Below the pieces are notes generated by a model. The model had not been told where the DNA came from. It searched no databases and saw nothing but the letters and a program-made list of their open reading frames with translations. Below, piece after piece: positions 59-6,599 of a stretch of DNA of 46,264 bases. The number at the start of each line of letters is the position of its first letter. The first letter of the stretch is position 1. The position numbers and the translations under genes are program-made. This DNA comes from Acidobacteriota bacterium (GTDB lineage Bacteria > Acidobacteriota > Holophagae > Holophagales > Holophagaceae): contig JAJYRN010000021.1 in assembly GCA_021794095.1 (NCBI GenBank), positions 1 through 46,264 on the forward strand. The letters run 5' to 3'.

Positions 59-88
59 CCATGGCCCCCCAGACGCCCAAAGCGCCGC

Positions 89-135
89 AGGGTAGCGGCT
101 GCGGTCGGGCTCCGCCCTCCCTCCGCCGCTACCCT
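89..135. repeat. 11-bp inverted repeat at the edge of the Rhs island
   Basis: The arms AGGGTAGCGGC (89-99) and GCCGCTACCCT (125-135) are perfect inverse complements around a 25-base GC-rich loop. There is no T-run, so a classical intrinsic terminator is uncertain. Base composition drops sharply right after the right arm, so it marks the border between GC-rich chromosome and AT-richer island. From 136 to 301 I see no gene, only AT-rich sequence downstream of the minus-strand gene 302-595. Confidence 0.5.
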
Positions 136-301
136 GACAGATCACCATCAACCACCTACCGGAACGAACTTACAGAAACTTCTGGACACAACTGTGGTCT
201 CTCAAAAGTAAAGAATGAGACAAAGATCGCAAAGTTGGTTCACTGCCGCCTAGAACCCGACCCATCCAGAAAACCTCCGCATAATTGTTTGTTTTCGGCG
301 C

Positions 302-595
302 CTATTCCCCGCATATTGCAACACTCAATAGCATCGATAGCAACTGAATTAAACCAACCATTCCAAGCGCAATAAGCAAATAAATAAACTTCATTTTCAT
401 GTAGACCCTGATTAACCAATATGCACTTATCAAACTAATAATCAGTGGTATCGACCATGATAGATCTTGAGATAGATTGGTGCCAAAATACCTTTCATGA
501 ATCCAAAAGAGGACAATGGTGCTGACGATCTGACCGATTATCAACGCCAATACAATTAACACATGCTTAAATTGCTTATTATCATTAGTCAACAT
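302..595 (-). CDS. Small multi-pass membrane protein, candidate immunity protein for the orphan Rhs tip
   Basis: This 97-residue protein is mostly hydrophobic. Membrane segments are visible at about 12-31, 47-64 and 69-92, separated by short polar loops. The ATG has a GGAG ribosome site five bases upstream, overlapping the end of the displaced Rhs tip (611-1006), so the two lie in the usual tip-then-immunity order. I recognise no named family. The immunity role is inferred from position, size and its likeness in size and topology to the membrane protein 1010-1306 that follows the main Rhs gene. AT-rich codon use sets it apart from the core genes. Confidence 0.6.
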   Translation of the reverse strand: MLTNDNKQFKHVLIVLALIIGQIVSTIVLFWIHERYFGTNLSQDLSWSIPLIISLISAYWLIRVYMKMKFIYLLIALGMVGLIQLLSMLLSVAICGE

Positions 596-610
596 AAAAA
601 CTCCATGAAG

Positions 611-1006
611 TTAGTGATAATAAATATAATTAGTTAACCCAATCAAGGTATTTGTTCCATCTTTACAATTATTACTAGGCAAACTGTAGTTTAAACTAAA
701 TCCAGAGAGCACACTAAAGGCTATCTCGACATATGGGACATAATCAGCCCCACCCACATAATGAAGGTATTGGACATCGTGTAGGGCTTGATTAGCCGCC
801 ATTACATCCGCAGGTGCATCTACAAACCAGCCAGAGCTTCCCCCATTGCCATAGCTATAGGTGTGCAGCAAGTTACCGCGTTGATTTGTCGTCAGGGTAA
901 ATGAATGAGAAAACCAACCATTTTTCGCGTCTGCTGAATTAGTACCGAATGTCCTGTCAACCCAATACGCAGCCGAATAATCTGTTTGCGCCGAAGGTTC
1001 TAGCTC
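611..1006 (-). pseudogene. Orphan (displaced) Rhs C-terminal tip without a start codon
   Basis: The frame is open for 131 codons after an in-frame TAA at 1007-1009 and ends at TAA 611-613. No ATG or GTG and no ribosome site occurs near its beginning; the only in-frame start-like codon is a TTG at 871, mid-domain. It begins ELEPSAQTD and, from AQTD on, is 126 residues long, close to the 130 residues after the same AQTD in the main Rhs protein. Both continue with a W-(L/V)-D-R pattern a few residues later. This fits a silent Rhs tip cassette that could recombine onto the main gene. Its fold and activity are unknown. It also contains a GGSSGWFVDAP stretch and two cysteine-poor Gly/Tyr-rich segments. 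Confidence 0.65.
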
Positions 1007-1009
1007 TTA

Positions 1010-1306
1010 CTAGCTCTTACTAGCCGAATTATCAAATAACGATGGATGGGGCATAAGTAAGATAGCAAAAAGGAAATACACTGATTTTATCCAGTAGCTA
1101 CAACTTGAAATTTCAACGACTAATCCTATTAGTAAAATAAACAATATTATGGTTATTAACAGTATTTTTGAATATTTTTTACCGAGTAACCCGAATTGAC
1201 CATAAAGAGGAACAAGCCATTTTAATGAAAATCCAGAAAACACCATGCCAATTAAAATGAACCAAAAAATGTTTATCCCGCTAAAAGGTGTTGAATTCAT
1301 AATCAT
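1010..1306 (-). CDS. Small membrane protein, candidate immunity protein of the main Rhs toxin
   Basis: It is 98 residues from the ATG at 1306. That start was chosen because GGGAGG lies eight bases upstream, while the frame continues to an upstream ATG at 1351 with no ribosome site. Hydrophobic segments at about 10-28, 45-64 and 70-85 predict three membrane passes. It begins 53 bases after the Rhs stop, the normal place for an Rhs immunity gene. No family is recognised. The frame ends at TAG 1010-1012, inside a 10-base direct repeat (1001-1020) that also contains the stop preceding the orphan tip. The immunity role is inferred from position. Confidence 0.65.
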   Translation of the reverse strand: MIMNSTPFSGINIFWFILIGMVFSGFSLKWLVPLYGQFGLLGKKYSKILLITIILFILLIGLVVEISSCSYWIKSVYFLFAILLMPHPSLFDNSASKS

Positions 1307-1359: not shown

Positions 1360-4300
1360 CTAAGGCATGAATGGGTTGAGGCCAGATGCGTTTACCGCTG
1401 AACCAATTGCATTGCCAATTTCAAAACCAGCGATACCTACCCCGGTGGCAATTGTTGCTACTCCAGCGCTGGCTAAACCTGCAGCAATCCATGACTCACC
1501 TGCAGTTGCGGCGGTTCCTGTGGCAGCGAAAAAACCTTCATCGAGATATGGAGAGGTCGCTGGCCAAGTAGGGAAATAGCCCCAATTAAGTCCGAAAGGT
1601 GTAACTCCCGTTACTCTTGTAGCCCATGCAGATGCGGCTTGTCCCAAGCTGATAGATCCTACCTTGCCAACTAAGCTATTGCCGACAAATTGATTGGTTT
1701 GATTAAAACTGCTCTTCCAACGATCTAGCCATGTACTTTGATCTGTTTGCGCCAAATATGAGTCGGTTATATCATCCGAAACCCATTGCCATGGTTCCTG
1801 GTTGATATCATAACTTTCAGATGTTATTACTTCTACAGAGGGGTGCTCCCAGCCACCTGTAATTTGGGACCCATCAGGTAATGTAAAATACATGGAATTA
1901 TTCTGCATTTGAGGGAAGTAATATCCACCATTGCCTGAGCTAATGCGATAATTTGGGTCTCCACCTCCACCTACGCAGCTGAATATACCACTATCAGGCG
2001 GAAGGGTTCTCATCCATTCGGCCAAGGATGAATTGTACCAAGTATTAGCATTTGCGTCCATTCCAGAAGGATCTGACATCATCAATGGACTGCCAAGCCC
2101 ATATGCATATTGGTCGATCGAGTTTGGATCAGCGCCTTGATCACTGTTAAGGAATCGGTGCCACTGAGGACTGTAGAATCGCCCCCGCATATAGACAAGG
2201 CCATCAACATCTGTCTGCAGGTGCCCGGTATACCCTGTCATCGGGATATAGGCTCCTGCATTTGGATAGGGAGACGTGAGGGATTCACCATATGGCCCGA
2301 ACATCTGTGCGCCCTGGAAGCCCGAGACCCCAGGACTCGTGACCAGAATCGGGGTGCCAAGGTGATCACAGTGCAACTCGTGGACCCCACTGGCATCGAT
2401 TTCGGCGATGGCAAGGCCCCCAAGGTAGACCACATCCCCCTTCCAGGCCCACGAGGTGCCTGAACCAGCGTACTCAGAAAGCATGAGGCCGCTGCTGGAG
2501 TAGGCGAATCGCCGGTTGTTGGCGATAGTTCCAGAGTCCAGCACCTGGAACCTGGTTCCGCTGGGAAGATACGCATAGGTCTCTGTCGAGCCATTTAGGG
2601 TGGTGCTACTCAGGCGTCCTAAGCCATCCCAGACGAATCCATAGGCCGAGGCGCTCCCTACCGAAGTCCCAGCCTGTTTTGCTTCCCCGTCCCCGTCATA
2701 ACTCCATTGTGTCGCAAACCCCTCCTGGGTCTGGGGTGGGATCTGATTTGTGGGCACCCCGTTTATGGACAGTGGGGCCGCGAAAGTGAAATTCGTGAAC
2801 CCGGGTGCGGCTCCAGCCTGAGCATTGGTGTTATTCCCAAAACCATCATGCTGGAGGGATTCCGAGATTCCCATTCCTTGACTTGTGGCTTGTGTAAGCC
2901 TCCCGAGCCAATCGTGAGTCAGACTTGTCCACTCACCTGCTTGGTTCAGATGGTTCAACGCGTCGTAGCCATATTCTCGAACAATAGTCGCTGCCCCGGG
3001 GGCAGTGATCGTCTCCGAATTAATCTGAGTCCCATCAGGAGTAAAGTCCCAGGTATCCGACGCACCTGAGACAAATTGAAGTCCACCCAGATGTCCCCAC
3101 CCCTCGGTGTCGTAGCTAACGTTGGTCAGAAGAAGGCCATTATTGGTAACGCTCGTGATTCGCCCAAAATTGTTTTGATCGTCGTAATGATAGATAATTT
3201 GCCGACCCTGCGGGTAAGTGATCGATGACATACGATTCACATTGGGATCGTAGCCATAAATGATCGCCCAAGGTGCCGAAGCCCCCTCAGGAGTAATGGT
3301 TTCAGAATGCACGCGACCGATGGCGTCTGGTGTATAGGAAATAGAGCCGGTCTGGTTTGCACTATTTGTGCTTGAACTCAGCAAAAAAAGACCATTATAA
3401 TTAAAATATGCGTTATCTGTTCCATTGACTACTGAACGAATTCGGCCCAAACCGTCATAGATTAAAGTCCGGATTCGCCCGTCATTTTCCCGGATGCTCA
3501 GTGGTAATCCCTGAATATTGTAAAGCGATCCATTATAGTTGTAAGTTGTTGTCCCCGTTTCAGGTTCTGTTTTACTTAGGAGTAATCCTAAGGTGGAATA
3601 ATTAAATGATCTCACTTGGGGCGTCTGCCCTGATGGCGTGATTGTAAGCGTGGTTACATGGCCTTGCGCGTCGTACTGCCAGGTTGTGACAGTTCCAAAA
3701 GGATCCGTGGCACTAATTGGGTTACCCCAAAGATCTAATGATTTGCTAGTTGTGAATGTCTGTCCAGTGTACTTCACGGTCTGGACCTGATTGCCAGAAC
3801 CGTCATCCGAGTAGCTATAAGCAACTTGAGGGCCTACTGGAGGGGTGACTTGAATCAATCTTCCCAGGGCATCAAACGATTTACTTGTCGTACGGACATT
3901 TCCTGCCGGGGACACTTCCTTAACCTGGACTAATTGTCCGTTCTGATCATATGAATAGGTCTCGACGACGCCGTCGCTTCCCCTGACCTTTTCGTAAGGT
4001 CGTCCGAAGCTATCGCTGTACACGGTGGTGGTGCGCCCATTCTTCTGGGTGATCGTTTCCACTTCACTAGGATAGGTCGTATTGATGGGTGCATCACCGG
4101 TACGTGTGGATTTGGTAATTCTTCCGTGAGCATCGTAACTCGTTCCAACAGTGACTCCGAGGCTATCCATATAGGAAGTGACTCGGTTTGCGGAATCATA
4201 GGCGAAGGACGTATCACTAACGGAATTGGTACACCCCGCCGTCGTTGGACCATCGTAGGTGGTGGTATTGCTGTTTGGCAATGCTGTCGTTGGGTCTAGA

Positions 4301-6453
4301 TAAAAAGTCTCTGATTTGCCACCACTTGTCGAAAATGATGCACCAGAAGCAAATGGTGCCTTGGTTTGAAGATGACCGTATCGATTATCTCCTTTTGGGA
4401 AGTAAGTGTAGTTCGTTCCGATTCCTGCCGAAGGGGTTCCAAGACAATATTGAGACAAAAGAAATGTGGTTGAATTGTAGGCATAGGACATTTGCTTGGG
4501 ATTTGGGTAGACACCATTCGCTTTGTTAAGACGCGATTCTGTGGTCGTAGTACACCGATTTGGATCCAGATACTCAGGATGGCGATCGTACGTATAGGAA
4601 ACATCGGATTCATAGGCATAGGGAATGCCGGGGCCTGAACCCGTCGTAGTAGAGGTTGGAGATCCTGTTTTGATATCCAAAGTGGCGCTGAAACTATGAG
4701 GAGGCGCACCAGTGGTCGCCGTATTGGCTGTCGACATACCTGTAAGGGTTCCGTCAACACCATCCAATGAATAGCTGTACTGAGTGGTACTCGTCGCATT
4801 CGCCCCAGCTACGATGATCTTGCTAGCAGAACCATTTCCATAATCTGGACTGCTTGGGATCGCGAACTGATACGTCGTGGTGGGATTGTCTGCCGTAACG
4901 ACGGGCTGACTATTCCATGTCTGAGTCCCAGACCACGCCTCATTGTAAGTATTGGTCCAGGCGGTCGCAGTAGCCGTGGTGGGGAGATTCCATGTGAAGG
5001 TTCGAGTCAAAGTCACACCCGAATTGGTCGCGGTGTTCTGCTGGACGCTCCTGTAGTTGTCCACCATGATGGTGGAACTTTGTGCCGCGGCTGGATCTAC
5101 CAAGCTGGTGTCCTGCCAGGTGATCCCCGTTTGGAGTTCAAGAGGATCCTTGAAGCCCGTCAGTTCACTGGCACCTGTAGGGGATTCGACGTTATATGAG
5201 AAATACCAATTCAGGTCCGATACTGGCCAAGGCCACGGGTTGGAGACTTGCTGCGGCACCGGAAGCTGGGCCCAGCCCAAGTCCGGTAGGGGCATGCTGG
5301 GGTTGCCAATACGCAGCCGGGTTGGTCGAAGCACGGGCCCTCCCGCAAGGGGCAGCATCGCGTCCGTGGTCGTCTGAAGATCCGGATAGGCCGTCACCTG
5401 GATGCTGGGAGCCTGAACATTGATAAAATCTGCCCGAAGGTAATCCCCCTTTACGCCACCACCGCCTGCGCTAGGCTCCGCCCACTGGAGTTGGACACCC
5501 TTCCCGAGCTGATTCAGCGCCTGGACCGTACGAACGGCCGCGATCCCACTTGGCAACCCGGTCGTGATATTCCGCCATTGAAAACTCACCCAGTGCCCGA
5601 ACCGATCCACCCAGAGCAATGGAACCCAGGCGTAGAGTTCCTTGGCATAGGCGTAAACCCTGGCTCTATCCCGATCCATCACGACGTAGTAACCCGAATG
5701 CGTACCCGTTGTGAATCCCACGGGTGCCACCGAGGCGACCTTGCTGGCCCAAGACCCCAAGTCGGCTGCCACCGCCGGGTAGGCAACCAAGGCTCCAGAT
5801 GAATCAATCGTGACCGCGCTCGCAGCCTTAGCCGCAAGACCAAATTGGGGCGGCAAACTGAACGTACCGGTCATGGTAGTGAAATCGTTAGAAGAGTGGA
5901 CAGTCCCATCCTCAAGTACGTAATACGGGTTTGGAGTGAATTGATCTAACTTGCCATAATCACCAGTGCCTGGTACAGATTGAGTATCATTTGAAGAGAT
6001 AAAACCAAAATCAATTGTTCCAAAAATTGGCCTAGCATAGCGGACAAAACCAGGAGCGTACATTCCTCCAGTTCCAATCATAGGAGAAATGCCAGTCTTA
6101 ATTGCAGCCGTTGCGCCAGAAAGGCTGATGTATCCACGACTATTAACGACTGGCCAAGCATTCGATGCATTGTACCTGAATACCACAGGAATAGGTATTT
6201 CCCCAGGAACAGCTCCTATTGGAATAACAAATGAAAGAGCACCTTTGCCCATATCCACCGAAAACCCATTTCCCGTGACAACTGGGAATAGGTTGTTCGA
6301 ACCGTCGGCTCCTCCAAGGGCAGGAGCGCCCGTGCTGACGCCCGTCATGGTCGCGTGAGGTGGATACAAGATCCGGTACGGGGATGTTTGACCGAAGAGC
6401 GTTCCAGCCAGGAATAGACCTGGCAAAATCTTAAATTCAATCAACTTTCTCAC
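1360..6453 (-). CDS. Giant Rhs/YD-repeat polymorphic toxin with N-terminal signal peptide
   Basis: About 1697 residues. A basic N-terminus and hydrophobic stretch ending near LAGTLFGQ form a Sec-type signal peptide. There is no PAAR or VgrG-like domain, so type VI delivery is not indicated. The middle is filled with YD repeats such as YDAHGRI, YDALNHL and WDGLGRL, which build the Rhs shell. The core closes with the conserved RGRFYSP...RFLNSD...YAYG...DPSGM motif, after which a 232-residue variable tip follows (1360-2058). The tip ends in a Gly/Ala-rich hydrophobic segment that could insert into membranes. Start: AGGAG at 6459-6463 overlaps a GTG at 6459, so the GTG at 6453, five bases on, is the better start. 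Codon use is less GC-rich than in neighbouring genes, suggesting transfer. Activity of the tip is unknown. Confidence 0.92.
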   Translation of the reverse strand: MRKLIEFKILPGLFLAGTLFGQTSPYRILYPPHATMTGVSTGAPALGGADGSNNLFPVVTGNGFSVDMGKGALSFVIPIGAVPGEIPIPVVFRYNASNAWPVVNSRGYISLSGATAAIKTGISPMIGTGGMYAPGFVRYARPIFGTIDFGFISSNDTQSVPGTGDYGKLDQFTPNPYYVLEDGTVHSSNDFTTMTGTFSLPPQFGLAAKAASAVTIDSSGALVAYPAVAADLGSWASKVASVAPVGFTTGTHSGYYVVMDRDRARVYAYAKELYAWVPLLWVDRFGHWVSFQWRNITTGLPSGIAAVRTVQALNQLGKGVQLQWAEPSAGGGGVKGDYLRADFINVQAPSIQVTAYPDLQTTTDAMLPLAGGPVLRPTRLRIGNPSMPLPDLGWAQLPVPQQVSNPWPWPVSDLNWYFSYNVESPTGASELTGFKDPLELQTGITWQDTSLVDPAAAQSSTIMVDNYRSVQQNTATNSGVTLTRTFTWNLPTTATATAWTNTYNEAWSGTQTWNSQPVVTADNPTTTYQFAIPSSPDYGNGSASKIIVAGANATSTTQYSYSLDGVDGTLTGMSTANTATTGAPPHSFSATLDIKTGSPTSTTTGSGPGIPYAYESDVSYTYDRHPEYLDPNRCTTTTESRLNKANGVYPNPKQMSYAYNSTTFLLSQYCLGTPSAGIGTNYTYFPKGDNRYGHLQTKAPFASGASFSTSGGKSETFYLDPTTALPNSNTTTYDGPTTAGCTNSVSDTSFAYDSANRVTSYMDSLGVTVGTSYDAHGRITKSTRTGDAPINTTYPSEVETITQKNGRTTTVYSDSFGRPYEKVRGSDGVVETYSYDQNGQLVQVKEVSPAGNVRTTSKSFDALGRLIQVTPPVGPQVAYSYSDDGSGNQVQTVKYTGQTFTTSKSLDLWGNPISATDPFGTVTTWQYDAQGHVTTLTITPSGQTPQVRSFNYSTLGLLLSKTEPETGTTTYNYNGSLYNIQGLPLSIRENDGRIRTLIYDGLGRIRSVVNGTDNAYFNYNGLFLLSSSTNSANQTGSISYTPDAIGRVHSETITPEGASAPWAIIYGYDPNVNRMSSITYPQGRQIIYHYDDQNNFGRITSVTNNGLLLTNVSYDTEGWGHLGGLQFVSGASDTWDFTPDGTQINSETITAPGAATIVREYGYDALNHLNQAGEWTSLTHDWLGRLTQATSQGMGISESLQHDGFGNNTNAQAGAAPGFTNFTFAAPLSINGVPTNQIPPQTQEGFATQWSYDGDGEAKQAGTSVGSASAYGFVWDGLGRLSSTTLNGSTETYAYLPSGTRFQVLDSGTIANNRRFAYSSSGLMLSEYAGSGTSWAWKGDVVYLGGLAIAEIDASGVHELHCDHLGTPILVTSPGVSGFQGAQMFGPYGESLTSPYPNAGAYIPMTGYTGHLQTDVDGLVYMRGRFYSPQWHRFLNSDQGADPNSIDQYAYGLGSPLMMSDPSGMDANANTWYNSSLAEWMRTLPPDSGIFSCVGGGGDPNYRISSGNGGYYFPQMQNNSMYFTLPDGSQITGGWEHPSVEVITSESYDINQEPWQWVSDDITDSYLAQTDQSTWLDRWKSSFNQTNQFVGNSLVGKVGSISLGQAASAWATRVTGVTPFGLNWGYFPTWPATSPYLDEGFFAATGTAATAGESWIAAGLASAGVATIATGVGIAGFEIGNAIGSAVNASGLNPFMP

Positions 6454-6599
6454 ATACACTCCTATAAAAATAGAACTTCAAGGCAAAGTACGAAAATTTT
6501 CAAAAACTCACATTCATTACAAAAATATTTCTATTGCTACATTCGAAAATCTAATGACACTTTCAGGCTAGTCGAAGCGAGTGTAATGAGACCCAGGAT

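Follow-up and report, generated by a model that had tools for sequence, protein, structure and literature searches.

The first 6.5 kb of the window (the whole 46,264-nucleotide stretch of DNA analysed here, which is the start of contig C3 of a 2.99 Mb genome) is, taken as a whole, probably best explained as an Rhs polymorphic toxin locus carrying two toxin-immunity cassettes, the tips of which begin in frame at one and the same short DNA word. The locus lies entirely on the minus strand, in the order of rhs gene with active tip, 98-aa protein, displaced tip devoid of a start codon and 97-aa protein. The G+C content of positions 302-2058 is 40.8%, as compared to 64.8% window-wide. The features of the locus are as follows.

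1360..6459, minus strand: rhs gene, 1699 aa, with GTG start at 6459 or 6453, YD repeats and Rhs core
1363..2058, minus strand: variable C-terminal region, 232 aa past DPSGM
1363..1752, minus strand: active toxin domain (candidate), beginning at AQT, the GCG codon of which has its first base at 1752, with a Gly/Ala-rich hydrophobic end and homologous to the L021/L124 and L027/L115 tips
1744..1753, minus strand: GGCGCAAACA, junction word at the active tip
1010..1306 (1013-1306 without stop), minus strand: 98-aa protein with three hydrophobic segments, candidate immunity protein 1
1000..1024, no strand: 10-bp tandem repeat of 2.5 copies, located where cassette 1 meets the displaced tip and containing stop codons
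983..992, minus strand: GGCGCAAACA, junction word at the displaced tip, with the same reading, GCG CAA ACA
611..991, minus strand: former tip, now displaced, of 126 aa counted from AQT, with no start codon, no hydrophobic segment and, by eye, a His...Asn-Asn-Cys pattern
302..595 (305-595 without stop), minus strand: 97-aa protein with three hydrophobic segments, candidate immunity protein 2

The rhs gene product matches RHS_repeat of Pfam (8.9e-31) and TIGR03696 of NCBIfam (1.3e-11), and its N-terminus, judged by eye only, resembles an export signal. The YD repeats and Rhs-associated core are followed by a variable tip and then by an immunity-type gene, the arrangement by which an Rhs polymorphic toxin is recognised. 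A G+C-rich 23-bp inverted repeat (83%, 3-nt loop) at window positions 88-136, which separates the Rhs locus from what is likely the end of a plus-strand gene, is a possible terminator.

The initial annotation described two unrelated-looking proteins of 97-98 residues, each with about three membrane segments, following two tips, and hydropathy analysis agrees with this description. Membrane segments were called from Kyte-Doolittle hydropathy in 19-residue windows, in which the 98-aa protein (1010-1306) displays peaks of 1.88, 3.21 and 1.49, and the 97-aa protein (302-595) peaks of 2.83, 1.57 and 2.30; at the cut of 1.6 used in the genus survey, two segments are counted in each. The 98-aa protein reads from an ATG at 1306 located after GGGAGG, the longest frame beginning at 1351. 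In a single comparison the two proteins are 27% alike over 74 aa (E 0.037), a value that indicates no clear relation. Neither has a Pfam or NCBIfam family above the curated cut-off or a credible match among sequences of solved structures, and a search for immunity protein 1 in the 47 genus genomes returned itself and 11 weak matches at chance level (best E 0.04).

The survey of the genus started from 53 Rhs-core matches in 47 Geothrix genomes, two of which were dropped (the second piece of one Rhs, and one match under the cut-off). The 3′ ends of the resulting 51 stretches (50 loci and the window) were fetched, and 47 tips were kept after skipping L091, which meets a contig end, and L093, L125 and L127, with tips under 60 aa. 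Related loci, such as L104 and L118 with the same next gene, stay in the counts, and the next gene was picked by a crude rule of start near the stop, Shine-Dalgarno and length. By this rule, the next gene contains at least two hydrophobic segments (cut 1.6) in 13/47 Geothrix tips, window included, so that two multi-pass neighbours in one locus are not very rare. Exactly one segment was recorded in 15/47 next genes, starting in 14 of these within the first ten residues, like in an exported protein, and none in 19/47. The tips with multi-pass neighbours are themselves more hydrophobic, as evident from a median best 19-residue score of 1.20 vs 0.77 (one-sided p 0.003, kinship uncorrected; p 0.007 when the window is left out). 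On contig C1 of G076, 14 Rhs-core matches form several clusters, and many of the matches are in short frames; its loci include L085, L088, L089, L092-L094, L096, L109-L111 and L113, and most of those read consist of a tip with a small gene after it.

The active tip, in its 232 aa past DPSGM, displays a single hydrophobic segment, at residues 191-209 with a score of 1.72, which bears out the earlier observation that the main tip ends in a Gly/Ala-rich hydrophobic stretch. A hydrophobic, membrane-insertable C-terminal segment, as looked for in an ionophore or pore toxin, is therefore present in the active tip, and it is absent in the displaced one. The domain past AQT is homologous to a tip of G166 (L021/L124; 30% identity, E 4e-9 pairwise), a genome classed by genome search in the same genus as that of the window, and alignment and profile revealed a second relative in a displaced tip of G231 (L027/L115). 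Both relatives precede a protein of 142 or 140 aa, in which 2-4 hydrophobic segments are counted according to the cut, and these two neighbour proteins are weakly alike (27%, E 0.014). BLASTP gave no likeness between immunity protein 1 and the protein beside the G166 relative, and immunity protein 1 and the G231 neighbour protein were put together in alignment only. A Phe-Glu pair is invariant in the hydrophobic Gly/Ala-rich segment across the tips of the window (1363-1755), L021 and L027.

Because its C-terminus is Gly/Ala-rich and hydrophobic, its two relatives stand before multi-pass proteins and the hydrophobicity trend is genus-wide, we consider it quite probable that the active tip acts on the membrane. 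In the proposed mechanism, the Gly/Ala-rich toxin domain of ~130 residues would insert into the inner membrane of the target and depolarise the target cell, and the 98-aa three-pass immunity protein would most likely block the active toxin inside the membrane. A glycine-zipper pattern, GFEIGNAIG, is also found in the active tip, and was rejected as proof of a pore, as it is equalled in 22% of shuffles and is explained by composition.

The Rhs repeats and core give the only Pfam and NCBIfam matches above the cut-off; neither tip has one, and no toxin family was matched. The three-member profile of the active tip gave one confirmed locus in genome_contigs, which is the G166 record, and nothing credible among solved-structure sequences; against plasmids there was no match at E 1. 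A phylum match in L007 (E 2.5e-4), which contains two stops, was dropped as chance. Structure prediction from a three-sequence alignment gave a mean pLDDT of 37.4 and no usable fold. The suggestion of a possible new toxin class, made in the initial annotation, is too strong: no family was matched, and the profile matched 3/396 phylum genomes, own genome included, but a small, very hydrophobic immunity protein with a Gly-rich toxin is the design of known ionophore toxins, as described in the cited passages of PMC11630599 and PMC12744356. On the toxin side, the locus contributes an ionophore candidate that is lineage-limited and is accompanied by a membrane immunity protein.

The closest parallels described in those passages are the CDI ionophore toxins with their CdiI proteins (CT-EC93 type; PMC11630599), in which a variable C-terminal toxin is likewise accompanied by a small, very hydrophobic immunity protein, of 72-100 aa there. 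CDI tips are demarcated by a VENN peptide, and the ionophore toxins sit on CdiA, whereas here they would sit on Rhs (PMC11630599). A putative glycine zipper is described in one group of them (PMC11630599); the GFEIGNAIG pattern here is within what composition gives. They are predicted as five-helix bundles with a two-helix hairpin immunity protein (PMC11630599), as against three hydrophobic segments in each candidate immunity protein here, the likeness being one of description only. A pore-forming Rhs tip with a membrane-bound immunity protein is described for Tse5/Tsi5 of Pseudomonas (PMC12744356, PMC11630599, PMC9637101); Tse5 is a T6SS effector, whereas the genome of the window gave no match to the T6SS sheath family PF05943.

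The displaced tip does not share the hydropathy of the active one. The second tip of the initial annotation holds as a tip-like frame before the 97-aa gene, but not as an expressed protein of its own, since the frame 611-1006 directly follows two stops (TAG TAA) and has no 5′ start codon. No hydropathy segment exceeds 1.2, so that the pore reading is unsupported for this tip. The earlier proposal of toxins acting on membranes as pores or channels thus gains from hydropathy, relatives and genus trend for the active tip, and loses for the displaced tip, which is unlikely to be a pore former; an enzyme acting at the membrane is at least as good a reading of it. Its His...Asn-Asn-Cys pattern, seen by eye, presumably resembles that of permuted papain-like enzymes. 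Searches for relatives of the displaced tip returned itself only in 199 phylum genomes, itself and three matches at E 0.23-0.25 in the 47 genus genomes, none confirmed in genome_contigs, no pattern match in viral_contigs, one match at E = 5 in plasmids and nothing credible among solved-structure sequences. Its single-sequence structure prediction (mean pLDDT 32.9) gave no usable model.

Alternatively, both tips could be enzymes, such as a lipase, an acyltransferase or an envelope peptidase, with the membrane or the periplasm as their site of action and with the multi-pass proteins shielding or binding them at the membrane. The Rhs tip at L078:3096-3470 (minus strand) is phospholipase A2-like (PF08398, E 9.5e-4, under the cut-off) and adjoins a 102-aa protein with three hydrophobic segments, which suggests that multi-pass immunity points to membrane action, and not necessarily to a pore. 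Among the 46 other active tips scanned with Pfam, 12 have a match at E 0.01 and four exceed the cut-off (M23, NlpC/P60, SLT and DUF6883), so some Geothrix tips are envelope enzymes (M23, NlpC/P60, SLT), and one displaced tip of the genus carries a Tlde1 domain. The absence of a hydrophobic segment and the His...Asn-Asn-Cys pattern in the window's displaced tip fit this alternative too, but the Gly/Ala-rich, hydrophobic end of the active tip and its lack of a family match do not, and we regard it as rather unlikely for the two tips together. A membrane-inserting active tip remains the preferred reading, with the former cassette behind it formed by a start-less tip that would be soluble by composition and by its own 97-aa three-pass immunity gene, which appears to have been kept open.

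The two tips of the window begin in frame at 13 identical bases, GGCGCAAACAGAT, read as GCG CAA ACA, and share a 16-base stretch at 15/16 (980-995 vs 1741-1756). In the own genome, GGCGCAAACA/GCCGCAAACA occurs nine times, as compared to four times for the reversed control; only two of the nine sites are at tips, namely the window pair, and the chance of any two of nine sites falling within 1 kb is 0.024. The other seven sites were rejected as tip cassettes, as all of them lie in stretches of 65-70% GC; in the Gln-Thr frame, 8-60 codons are open at six of them, and 248 at one, which lies inside a 437-aa ORF of another frame.

The core of the word recurs across the genus. GCAAAC is present in frame in 19/47 Geothrix tips, mostly at the boundary of linker and tip, and absent in frame from 28/47. 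Beside the six bases fixed by the search, C precedes in 18/19, A or T follows in 19/19, and G or C stands three bases before in 19/19. The match in L090, located within a peptidase-like domain, is probably due to chance rather than a junction, and that in L082 is doubtful as a junction. The 51 stretches together contain 28 copies of CGCAAAC on the gene strand, as compared to nine on the opposite strand. At the protein level, [Ala/Pro]-Gln-Thr is found in 19/47 tips, as compared to 4.8 expected from shuffles; 16 tips are common to the GCAAAC and [Ala/Pro]-Gln-Thr sets, which combined cover 22/47 and leave 25/47 with neither.

Gln-Thr could be conserved as a protein-level feature, i.e. a processing site or linker, with conservation of the DNA as a by-product, as the word in active tips falls nearly always in one frame (20 GCAAAC sites in frame vs two and none in the other frames, and one on the other strand). 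The codons argue against this. At the 19 [Ala/Pro]-Gln-Thr sites, Gln is CAA in 19/19 and Thr is ACA or ACT in 19/19, as against 51/98 and 94/177, respectively, near the sites, and 273/668 and 466/1008 elsewhere in the same frames (Fisher 6e-8 and 5e-7). Start-less displaced tips keep the word too, and a purely protein-level origin of it is hence improbable. Past the Rhs stop, CGCAAAC was recorded ten times in ten loci (L081, L083, L086, L103, L104, L106, L115, L119, L122 and the window). Five of these sites (window, L083, L103, L115 and L119) open 126-188 codons in the Gln-Thr frame, and the other five, which open 21-52 codons, are fragments or chance. The displaced tip at L103:1408-1947 (plus strand), read from the junction word, has a Tlde1/L,D-transpeptidase domain (E 3.5e-7), and the gene downstream of it has one hydrophobic segment.

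In seven genomes of other genera, 30 of the 42 Rhs-core matches were read, some of them truncated at a contig end. The word is present in the Rhs frame in 4/11 loci of two other genera of the same family, reading Ser- or Pro-Gln-Thr at 137-183 codons from the end, and absent from the 19 Rhs loci of other families (0/19).

When active and displaced sites of the same locus were compared, 6/8 pairs shared the two bases before GCAAAC, 10-15 bases in all, and the pairs of L086 and L104 shared 8 and 7 bases. The flanks of the active and displaced sites, taken as 57 bases upstream and 60 downstream, show 16-35% likeness when compared ungapped, which is about random. Two pairs of active sites have clearly similar linkers, those of L115 and L118 being 93% alike up to the word and 62% beyond it, and those of L100 and L103 85% and 55%, where the background is 57% (sd 4, with a maximum of 65%). 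Both pairs have the appearance of natural swaps of the tip at this word; as some linkers are related, the junction sites are not all independent. All this makes it very likely that the word is an exchange junction. Each incoming cassette would enter at the conserved word, approximately (G/C)CGCAAAC(A/T), in the frame x-Gln-Thr (x mostly Ala or Pro), would fuse to the Rhs body there, and would push the older cassette downstream.

Homologous recombination usually needs a longer shared stretch than the one found here. Unrelated flanks together with so short a shared stretch leave either a dedicated enzyme or recurrent joining by microhomology; in the latter case, the requirement for frame and fusion may keep the joining to this word. 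Recognition of the word by a dedicated, putative enzyme is possible, although we hold it to be less probable than not having one. The word may also be a short piece of homology on which general recombination, illegitimate or homology-facilitated, draws, older flanking homology having eroded, and this falls only a little short of an even chance. Homology-facilitated illegitimate recombination is proposed for Vibrio and Rhs effector displacement in the passage cited from PMC5361080, and G076, with its 14 core matches, some in short frames, offers possible substrates of ordinary recombination. The shared stretch, on the other hand, amounts to no more than 7-15 bases between about random flanks, vs 522 bp at 95% identity in the Salmonella case as cited from PMC3967940, and linkers that are otherwise unrelated contain this same word.

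The Salmonella rhs main/orphan pair likewise has an active tip and a start-less orphan tip, each with an immunity gene, and fusion to the orphan tip is described as possible (PMC3967940). The homology shared there is the 522 bp mentioned, whereas here it is 13 bases, in a word that recurs in other Rhs genes of the genus. In the T6SS effector displacement arrays of Vibrio, a new pair displaces the old effector and old immunity genes are kept, which the authors liken to integrons; recombination is described there as being without specific integration sites (PMC5361080), whereas here a conserved word marks the join. In the standalone cassettes of polymorphic toxins, one recombination at the 3′ tip brings toxin and immunity gene, and old immunity genes are strung behind (PMC3482391). 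That the two genes travel together and that old immunity genes remain is hence already known, but the passage cited names no DNA site (PMC3482391), as compared to the conserved word here.

A DNA site of such kind for Rhs tip exchange was not found in searches of the open-access literature, in which no work on Geothrix with Rhs, and nothing relevant on Rhs with site-specific recombination, was found either. Tentatively, the Holophagaceae may possess an integron-like Rhs system, in which a putative recombinase would insert toxin-immunity cassettes at a site of about ten bases, (G/C)(G/C)CGCAAAC(A/T), serving both as DNA site and as in-frame x-Gln-Thr join. The attC-type core site of integrons is GTTRRRY, and the reverse complement of the word, GTTTGCG, compared by eye with this consensus, does not fit it. 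If the integron-like reading is true, every new tip would be in frame, and displaced tips would be recallable by deletion between the two copies of the word, which are 761 bp apart here. How Rhs and CDI toxins swap tips without breakage of the frame is unsettled, the Salmonella case making use of hundreds of homologous bases; a short conserved word common to otherwise unrelated Rhs linkers and to the starts of displaced tips would open tip exchange to direct testing.
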